From Chloroflexota bacterium (GTDB lineage Bacteria > Chloroflexota > Anaerolineae > Aggregatilineales > Phototrophicaceae), in NCBI GenBank assembly GCA_016223085.1, contig JACRPS010000003.1:988274-1052273 (forward strand): a stretch of 64,000 nt of DNA. The letters run 5' to 3'. Position 1 is the stretch's first letter. Each line of letters begins with the position of its first letter. Position numbers and translations under genes: made by a program. Positions 3,780-5,522 of the stretch are shown piece after piece. The notes under the pieces were generated by a model. The model saw nothing but the letters and a program-made list of their open reading frames with translations. It searched no databases and was not told the origin of the DNA.

Positions 3780-5522
3780 CTATCTTTGTTCCGGCACTTT
3801 GTTCAGCACCTCGTTGATAAACTTCTCGCGGTTCGCCCGGCGCGCGATTTTGCCGCTACTGGTTTTTATCAGCCATTTGGCGTCCACCAGATGCACGTAA
3901 CGCGCCATCACATCAGTGCTTTGCGCCACGCGGGCGCGCACCTCGCGCATGATGTCGGCGCGGGCGTCGAGGTCGTCGGTATCGGCCTCGGCTACGATGG
4001 CAACGTCCTCTGTGCCCAACTGCTCGTTAAACACGCCAAACGCCACCGCTCGCCCCGGATGCAGCCCCGGAATGTCATTCAGCAGATTTTCGATGTCCTG
4101 CGGGTACACGTTCTTGCCGCCGACGATTATCAGGTCTTTCTTGCGCCCGGTGATGTACAATTCACCATCGGCAAGATAGCCCATATCGCCGGTGAAATAC
4201 CAGCCGTCGGCCATCACCTCGGCGCTGGCGTCAGGACGTTGGTAGTAGCCGGTCAGCATCGAATCGCTGCGCAGCGCGATTTCCCCAACGCGGCGCTCCG
4301 GCAGCGGCTGGCGCTGCTCGTCCACGATTTTAATGTCGCAGTTGGGAATCGGCACGCCGCAGGAAACCAACGTAGTGGTCTGTAGGGACACGATATATCG
4401 TGTCCCTACGGGAACTGCCTGCCGGTCTTCCATCAGCGCCCGCCGGTCTACCACATCTAGCTTCGGCGGCGCGCCTAATGCGCTCTGCGTCACGGCGAAG
4501 GTGTTTTCCGCCATCGCGTAACAGGTCGCCAGCGCCGACTCACGTAGGCCGTAATAGGCGTACTGTTCCAGAAAGACGCGGTGACTTTCGGCGTAGACCG
4601 GCTCGGAGCAGTTAATGACCGCCCGCAACGACGACAGATCGAGGCCGGTGATCGCCGCCGGACGGATGCGCGTCGCCAGAAAATTGTAAGCGAAGTTTGG
4701 CAGCCAGCACAGCGTCCCGCGATGGTGATGAATAGCCCACAGCAAAATCTTCGGGTCGCGCACCCAGTGGAACGGCGACATCAGCACCAGCGGAATCCCC
4801 TGCAACACCGGCATGATAAAGCCGGCGATCAGCCCCATGTCGTGATACAGCGGCAGCCAGCTTACGACCACGTCATCCGGCGACAGGTTAACTGCGGCGC
4901 TGTAGGCCGCAATCTGATTGAGCACGGCGCGGTGTGACAGCATCACCCCTTTTTGCAGGCCGGTGCTGCCGGACGAGTGCTGCAAAAAGGCGGTGTCATC
5001 CGGCTGCGCGGGATTACGATGCAGATATTCCTGTAGGGGCACGGCATGCCGTGCCCCTACCACCTCGTCAACGTTTAGCACCGCTGCCAGCGACGGAATC
5101 CCCGCCAGCCGTTCCTGCAACGGCACGTGCAGTTCCGGGCTGGCGATGACCACCCGCACGCCGGAATGGTCAACCAACTGGCGCACGCTGTCAAAGTAGC
5201 GTTCGCGGTCGAGTTTGTCCGACAGAAACGGAAAAATCGAGGGGATTGCCCCCAGCAGCAGCGCGCCCCAGAAGCCGTTCAGCACCGCCTCGCCGTGCTG
5301 TAGCACCAGCACCACCAGATCGCCGGGTTTCACGCCACAGGCTTCCAGCGCCCCGGCAAAGCGCGCCGCGCCTGTAAAAAAATCGTGGGTCGTCAGGCGT
5401 CGCTCACCTTCGTGCTCGATCAGGAGGACAGCGGTTTCGTCGGGGCGTTCGCGGGCCAGCCAGCGCGCCTGTTCCAGCAGCGTGGCCGGACGCCGGTCAG
5501 GGGTGATGGGAAGGTCAGACAT
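3780..5522 (-). CDS. Fatty acyl-AMP ligase / AMP-dependent acyl-CoA synthetase family
   Basis: 580-residue ANL-superfamily enzyme that would activate a fatty acid as acyl-AMP. Visible motifs are the P-loop HSSGSTGLQKGVMLSH (about 182-197), WLPLYHDMGLIAGF, the YFTGDMGYLADGELYITGRK hinge region and the C-terminal Lys in IKTSSGKIARR. The HDMGLI context fits fatty acyl-AMP ligases better than short-chain CoA ligases. The acyl carrier protein gene lies just upstream on the same strand, suggesting loading of that carrier. Two perfect 28-base palindromes sit inside the gene in frame, encoding residues 155-164 (VGARHAVPLQ) and about 372-381 (VGTRYIVSLQ), apparently in surface loops. No polyketide or peptide synthetase is nearby. 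Confidence 0.85.
   Translation of the reverse strand: MSDLPITPDRRPATLLEQARWLARERPDETAVLLIEHEGERRLTTHDFFTGAARFAGALEACGVKPGDLVVLVLQHGEAVLNGFWGALLLGAIPSIFPFLSDKLDRERYFDSVRQLVDHSGVRVVIASPELHVPLQERLAGIPSLAAVLNVDEVVGARHAVPLQEYLHRNPAQPDDTAFLQHSSGSTGLQKGVMLSHRAVLNQIAAYSAAVNLSPDDVVVSWLPLYHDMGLIAGFIMPVLQGIPLVLMSPFHWVRDPKILLWAIHHHRGTLCWLPNFAYNFLATRIRPAAITGLDLSSLRAVINCSEPVYAESHRVFLEQYAYYGLRESALATCYAMAENTFAVTQSALGAPPKLDVVDRRALMEDRQAVPVGTRYIVSLQTTTLVSCGVPIPNCDIKIVDEQRQPLPERRVGEIALRSDSMLTGYYQRPDASAEVMADGWYFTGDMGYLADGELYITGRKKDLIIVGGKNVYPQDIENLLNDIPGLHPGRAVAFGVFNEQLGTEDVAIVAEADTDDLDARADIMREVRARVAQSTDVMARYVHLVDAKWLIKTSSGKIARRANREKFINEVLNKVPEQR
4382..4409. repeat. GTAGGG-type palindrome inside the acyl-AMP ligase gene
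   Basis: Perfect 28-base palindrome, half-site gtagggacacgata. Read on the minus strand it gives V-G-T-R-Y-I-V-S-L without a stop. Confidence 0.9.
5033..5060. repeat. Second GTAGGG-type palindrome inside the acyl-AMP ligase gene
   Basis: Perfect 28-base palindrome, half-site gtaggggcacggca. It is read in the same frame as the copy at 4382 and gives V-G-A-R-H-A-V-P-L. Confidence 0.9.

Follow-up and report, generated by a model that had tools for sequence, protein, structure and literature searches.

GTAG-ended palindromes between and within genes of a Chloroflexota genome: apparently old sites with young contents in an acyl-AMP ligase-like gene

It has been proposed that in-frame palindromes give rise to new protein segments, an idea best known from Rickettsia, whose palindromic elements (RPE) are about 150 bp long (PMC10969869, in part). 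RPE-4 and RPE-6 match intragenic R. conorii repeats of the CGTC type, according to the portions of PMC3733652 available to us, which also describe GTAG-tagged REPs as 24 families of high-copy palindromes of 20-40 bp, mostly intergenic and in some cases in frame. Chloroflexi are named there among the host phyla, in-frame copies are reported in many genes, and different REPs are described at about one site of Xanthomonas recB (PMC3733652, in part). Orthologous RAYT genes can be flanked by different REPs (PMC3686654 and PMC2817692, both in part). Double-foot REPs begin 5' with GT[AG]G and finish 3' with its complement, C[TC]AC; they have been linked to subclass 2.4 TnpAREP (RAYT group 4), and REPs in frame inside the tnpAREP genes themselves have been reported (PMC6006769, in part).

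The palindromes studied here resemble double-foot REPs in their complementary GTAG/CTAC ends and their in-frame gene copies, as far as the available text of PMC6006769 goes; the differences are that searches turned up no subclass 2.4 transposase and that 15 called genes contain copies. In GTAG REPs, as described in the accessible part of PMC3733652, the tag is unpaired at one end, whereas here GTAG pairs with CTAC. In many of those families, as in REPINs, inverted dimers with 20-100 bp between them predominate, whereas here singletons dominate, with only 15 of 290 successive start-to-start spacings below 100 nt; a few GTAG REP families in the same excerpts are, like the present one, singleton-dominated. 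RPEs share the presence of palindromes in frame inside genes, but their size (PMC10969869, in part) and CGTC-type tag (PMC3733652, in part) contrast with the 28-30 nt and GTAG of the present units. The small dispersed repeats (SDR) of cyanobacteria differ in sequence and host. Elhai is said to have described the latter in 2008 as units of 21-27 nt, unrelated in sequence and sharing a common fold, which reportedly occur inside minitransposons as well. We know of no in-frame coding copies of SDRs.

The original prediction for this DNA regarded such a system as unfamiliar for Chloroflexota, a view that the published GTAG-tagged REPs of Chloroflexi and in-frame REPs of several phyla overturn (PMC3733652 and PMC6006769, both in part). 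REPs, in-frame and Chloroflexi families included, are thus already known. What is new here is a family of mostly armless double-foot palindromes, present at very high copy number and in some cases in frame, without a visible cognate transposase. A literature search on REPs and palindromic elements in Chloroflexi or Anaerolineae, with subscription papers mostly outside its reach, yielded no description of the family among the papers listed, and a search for the literal string GTAGGGGC yielded, among the matches listed, no paper on the subject by title. In this lineage, distant from Rickettsia, a fifth of one genome holds 22 gene copies of the in-frame type, and one gene has five.

A dispersed family of GTAG-ended palindromes

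The genome analysed (G000) is a 6.03 Mb draft, and the window, meaning the whole 64-kb stretch of DNA under analysis, is G000:C12:988274-1052273. The exact-end pattern GTAGGGRC-N6-18-GYCCCTAC, a genome-wide search for which had been proposed with the original prediction, matched 635 sites in the 6.03 Mb, and the reversed pattern, used as the control, matched one. Nine exact-end members fall in the window and none were found in 100 shuffles (Table 1 lists the features of the window). Across 28 other genomes of the same order the exact-end count ranged from 0 to 111, the highest being that of G013. For finer analysis we used a contiguous 1.264-Mb sample, made by joining slices and the window, and allowed up to one mismatch per end. 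This gave 291 elements, compared with three in the reversed sequence. Their lengths were 28 nt (155), 29 nt (97), 30 nt (28) or other (11), and 99 were perfect palindromes, bearing in mind that the search pattern itself requires both ends.

Table 1. Features of the 64-kb window (positions are those of the window)
Feature	Position	Strand	Description
Family copy, intergenic	3050-3078	.	29 nt, one mismatch
Acyl-AMP ligase-like gene (PF00501)	3780-5522	-	580 aa, intact
Site 2	4382-4409	.	perfect 28-nt palindrome, subtype ACACGAT, residues 372-380 VGTRYIVSL
Site 1	5033-5060	.	perfect 28-nt palindrome, subtype GCACGGC, residues 155-163 VGARHAVPL
Family copy overlapping gene end	16940-16968	.	29 nt
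Degenerate copy	17980-18007	.	12 of 14 pairs; overlaps likely CARDB gene start; not counted as intragenic
Family copy, intergenic	22519-22548	.	30 nt, subtype GCGGGTT
Family copy, M2 MITE core	28735-28763	.	29 nt, subtype GCGAACC
Family copy overlapping gene end	34176-34203	.	28 nt
Family copy, intergenic	38746-38773	.	28 nt, two mismatches
Family copy, intergenic	41825-41853	.	29 nt, subtype GAGGGTC, which is G013's subtype at gene D
Family copy, M2 MITE core	44829-44857	.	29 nt, subtype GCGAACC
Family copy	46600-46627	.	28 nt, one mismatch; intergenic by our call, spanned by a longer ORF at 45257-46834

Genes in the sample were called with our own crude codon-usage caller, which uses no annotation, leaves some long gaps and gave 1,037 genes covering 82.8% of the sequence. 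As predicted, the family is dispersed and lies mostly between genes: 243 of the 291 elements are intergenic, 26 cross a gene edge and 22 are wholly intragenic, in 15 called genes. Elements are thus strongly depleted within genes, with only 22 of 291 inside the ~83% of the 1.264 Mb that is coding. Among intergenic positions, convergent gaps are favoured (56 elements, 39.2 expected) and divergent gaps avoided (27, 63.0 expected), with 159 elements in tandem gaps, where 139.8 were expected. High copy number, a mostly extragenic location and a preference for convergent or unidirectional gaps are all features of the REP type.

The intragenic copies are biased in phase. Counted by phase over the 1.264 Mb, 17 are read as GTA-GGG, four in the next phase and one in the phase that the original prediction had correctly said would give a TAG stop; the sole copy in that phase carries GGAG and so has no TAG stop. 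The bias of 17 versus 4 has a two-sided p of 0.007. When C12:1055640, C12:1191647 and C12:1373307 were omitted because they lie close to the end of a gene or in a gene whose call is weak, 16 of 19 copies were in the preferred phase (16 versus 3, p = 0.004). Five copies lie in one 902-codon gene (C12:802496-805201) and two each in three other genes. The protein of the 902-codon gene (L139:14223-16928) looks membrane-like by eye, and its five in-frame palindromes belong to four subtypes.

A third in-frame copy, which had been proposed for the CARDB gene, was not confirmed. It is degenerate and, from its sequence context, probably overlaps the true start of that gene. Our caller sets the gene start at 17998, within the palindrome, and a signal-peptide-like stretch follows the palindrome directly; on these two grounds, a start codon likely to lie within the palindrome and the stretch after it, the copy was excluded from the intragenic count. 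Translation of the CARDB protein may start from the GTG at 17998.

The unit of the family is the 28-30 nt palindrome, because its borders are sharp, recognised arms are mostly absent and the same core is common to two unrelated MITEs. Borders were tested by using inner cores alone as the query, with ends unforced, for three subtypes (46, 23 and 43 copies; copies labelled as armed were omitted from the second and third). In all three, conservation falls sharply beyond GTAG/CTAC: each end position is conserved in 70-100% of the core-found copies, followed by near-background levels, and exact GTAG and exact CTAC occur together in 29 of 46, 13 of 23 and 25 of 43 copies. Arms of the MITEs M1, M2 and M3 flank both sides of 31 of the 291 copies and one side of six; 254 copies have none. 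No intragenic copy has recognised arms (0 of 22), nor does any of the 43 copies of the commonest subtype, and the same core is found in M1, in M3 and alone. No MITE with another core or an empty one occurred among 33 distinct cored arm pairs (34 pairs, one copy being present in two loci), with 12 partnerless arms left out. Three MITE families have a GTAG...CTAC palindrome as their core; M1 (e.g., L047:1913-1985) has clear terminal inverted repeats, and M2 examples occur in the window at 28735 and 44829.

The ligase-like gene and its counterparts in related genomes

Both palindromes of the ligase-like gene are perfect over 28 bases, and translation confirmed that they are read in frame within an intact ORF, as had been claimed. 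About 0.0003 perfect palindromes of this length are expected by chance in 64 kb. The 28-mer of site 1 occurs 18 times in the 1.264 Mb, itself and MITE cores counted, and that of site 2 occurs 16 times, itself counted. By profile search, the ORF product matches PF00501 as an AMP-binding enzyme; fatty acyl-AMP ligases are among both its PDB relatives and its NCBIfam matches, all listed matches of the latter kind lying below the curated cut-offs. The closest named relatives among those fetched come from Anaerolineae and Anaerolineales metagenome-assembled genomes. The protein has what we take to be the motifs of the enzyme class, in line with the claim that the catalytic motifs are intact. In the AlphaFold model (mean pLDDT 89.8), site 1 forms a loop joining two short helices, and site 2 is mostly loop, the block of residues 371-380 having a mean pLDDT of 65. 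With dN/dS values of 0.133 versus G005 and 0.142 versus both G006 and G007 (dS 0.73-0.81), the gene is, as far as substitution rates tell, under purifying selection, and the protein with both peptides probably still works.

We compared the two sites with four draft genomes of congeners, G005, G006, G007 and the sister genome G013. Site 1 aligns at equal length in all four. Site 2 does so in G005, G006 and G007 and lies beyond the end of the G013 contig. In homologues at 65-68% identity, each site is about 3 aa shorter. The original prediction had expected each peptide to appear as an insertion relative to relatives; in these alignments the peptides are not simple insertions when set against the closest ones. 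Identical residues in homologues, which it had named as counter-evidence, were not found either, the residues at the sites being different. Of its parallel with Rickettsia, the dispersed family, the in-frame copies, the genes under selection and the preference for one phase stood, and the clean insertion of the ligase copies did not: both sites are in frame in a gene under purifying selection and, set against close relatives, neither is a gain.

The G013 counterpart of site 1 is a different palindrome with the same borders, GTAGGGGCGCACAGCCGTGCGTCCCTAC (p = 0.009). G006 shows a palindrome built from GGCGCAG/CTGCGCC (p = 0.053) and G005 one that is similar but weaker (p = 0.34), and in G007 the palindrome test found none (p = 0.94). 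Between G000 and G013, only one of the six innermost positions of the left arm is unchanged, within flanks that are 84-88% identical. In each of these two genomes the version at site 1 is identical, or nearly so, to a multi-copy subtype of that genome. The G013 subtype (GCAC) makes up 13 of 111 exact-end copies in G013 versus 10 of 635 in G000 (Fisher 2.8e-6); the G000 subtype (28-nt GCACGGC) accounts for 35 of the 291 elements in G000, and one degenerate GCACGGC-like copy is present among the 21 lenient elements listed for G013 (164 kb). The site 2 sequence of G005, G006 and G007 is a palindrome centred on CTTAAG, or what remains of one (p = 0.015, 0.014 and 0.053), presumably shared by descent. 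Since dS of the compared genes is 0.55-0.82, a perfect palindrome that matches a common family sequence is unlikely to be an untouched inheritance. The ligase sites look old in position and young in content, as judged from the alignments.

The remnant at site 2 resembles a 22-24 nt ACARNGGGCTTAAGCCCNYTGT type of G006, with nine matches in 302 kb. This second palindrome family of G006, ACAGTGGGCTTAAGCCCACTGT, was found at L155, L159, L161, L163-L165, L167 and L340, several of its members in the shared context GATCTGACAGCAG...CTGGTGGGTTTACG. A separate candidate family, GTAGACAATG...CATTGTCTAC, was rejected, being found in 0 of 29 genomes.

Explanations for the ligase palindromes and other shared sites

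Same borders with different inner arms were found in G000 and G013 at three sites, two coding and one intergenic: C12:993306 (site 1), C12:1291569 in gene D (C12:1289536-1291773) and the intergenic C12:218818. Gene D has an ACACGAT 28-mer in G000 and a GAGGGTC 29-mer in G013, both in frame, the latter with GCAG in place of GTAG at one end. Strong palindromes (score >=8.4, a threshold chosen after the scores were seen) occur in G013 at four of 11 alignable strict elements versus one of 490 controls (Fisher 6e-7), the sole control match falling among only 19 intergenic controls. For intragenic elements the figures are three of nine, against none of 471 coding controls. One of the four co-occupied sites, C12:803932, is not of the GTAG type in G013. 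The remaining seven of the 11 sites have no strong palindrome in G013, and several of the sites that are not co-occupied are linkers of variable length. The degenerate copy at C12:987664, outside the strict set of 11, gave p 0.010 in G013. Five comparison rows (C12:846461, 804899, 737243, 1037321 and 1356324) were dropped as lenient matches not of the GTAG type. In the three more distant congeners, G005-G007, palindromes were overall no more frequent than chance: two of 31 aligned segments passed p 0.05, each of them at site 2 and presumably inherited from a common ancestor.

We favour, at a probability of roughly 0.55, the reading that the palindromes are very small elements of the double-foot REP type which move or are copied, and that the ligase sites are old while their contents have been replaced by young copies. 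This reading builds on what was observed of the family, namely how its elements are built, their sharp borders, their copy number, their scarcity within genes and their biased phase, and on the few co-occupied sites with the same borders. The elements would be solo units of 28-30 nt with almost no loop, GTAG at one end pairing with CTAC at the other, that would have spread over the chromosome by moving or copying. Selection would have purged most intragenic insertions, such as those in structured parts of proteins, leaving survivors in linkers or loops, which would tolerate them, and in a stop-free phase. Both ligase element sites would be older than the split from the congeners, and the present palindromes would be young copies of subtypes common in the genome, having displaced older palindromes. 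Replacement is ranked first because the borders have stayed the same and, by eye, nothing of an old copy is left beside the new one.

Fresh, Rickettsia-like insertion, in which a single event in this lineage would have brought in each ligase palindrome and lengthened the protein by about ten residues, would explain the reading frame, the perfect arms and the common family sequence. A gain of this kind may have happened elsewhere: at C12:804333, in the five-palindrome gene, G013 is about 30 nt shorter, and the site looks like a clean gain in G000. For the two ligase sites, however, the equal lengths in relatives (four genomes at site 1, three at site 2) and the presence there of other palindromes, that of G013 at site 1 and the CTTAAG-centred one of G005-G007 at site 2, leave fresh insertion disfavoured and, in our estimate, unlikely. 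We give similarly little credence to compensatory evolution, whereby inherited hairpins would be kept by selection as their arms drift together. It has a precedent in REPs beside orthologous RAYT genes, which change yet stay palindromic (PMC2817692, in part), and it fits C12:218818, where only two compensated pairs and the centre (two bases versus one) differ, so that drift is possible there. It fits poorly with site 1, where so much of the inner arm has changed between well-conserved flanks and each version matches a multi-copy subtype of its own genome, and with gene D, where the two palindromes differ in length (28 versus 29 nt).

Closer to replacement is the possibility that tolerant linkers are hot spots, hit repeatedly by independent insertions with old copies deleted and no exchange reaction involved. 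Gene D suits such a history, as its linker has GTAG-type palindromes in G000 and G013, whereas the sequence there in G005, G006 and G007 is longer and of a different make-up. So do the predominance of G013 sites that are not co-occupied and C12:204737, where G013 keeps an apparent left half of the same subtype, for which reason no exchange is assumed there. Against hot spots, borders coincide at three sites, no half-element is seen by eye beside the G000 copy at any of them, and total length is kept at both ligase sites; we hold this explanation to be a serious rival with a rather low chance of being right. Far less probable is the view that the palindromes spread only as the middles of longer MITEs, with solo copies as remnants. 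Three MITE families do carry palindromes, but 254 of 291 copies, including all 43 of the commonest subtype, lack recognised arms, and the borders are sharp.

Within the replacement reading, the more specific idea of in-place exchange is put forward tentatively, as possible but doubtful: a resident palindrome would be removed and another put exactly there, from GTAG to CTAC, with subtypes that are genome-specific. If true, exchange would work inside genes, renewing a peptide of about ten residues without a frame shift, so that DNA repeats could rewrite protein linkers without breaking proteins. REP biology would gain a testable prediction, namely borders kept and arms swapped.

Candidate mobilising enzymes

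A single-strand DNA reaction of the HUH type at the GTAG/CTAC feet would be the likeliest enzyme route, as feet of this sequence point to RAYT-like HUH transposases acting on single strands. In the genome, no subclass 2.4 tnpAREP flanked by such REPs was found; the assembly is 97.85% complete, and a transposase gene could therefore have been missed. Three matches to PF01797 are present. Two are IS200/IS605-type TnpA genes, above the cut-off of NF033573, and score 34.3 and 26.5 bits with the RAYT model NF047646, whose cut-off is 80. The third, a Y1-like domain that lacks an HxH motif, is part of an open frame 1,043 aa long. G013, which has 111 exact-end copies, gave a single Y1 match, in an open frame of 1,040 aa. 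A RAYT was sought as mobiliser and not found, the profile searches of the genome having given no cognate RAYT, and a motif search of the 1.264 Mb returned nothing.

Both small IS200-type TnpA genes (L046:1388-1905 and L047:1408-1985) have a copy of the M1 MITE within about 60 nt; intergenic elements are dense, so we draw nothing from this proximity. Large open frames (about 970-1,040 aa) that contain a Y1_Tnp-like domain were seen at L048:1483-3333 and also at L303, L306 and L308, with no HxH motif in the parts covered, and perhaps represent a domesticated transposase domain.
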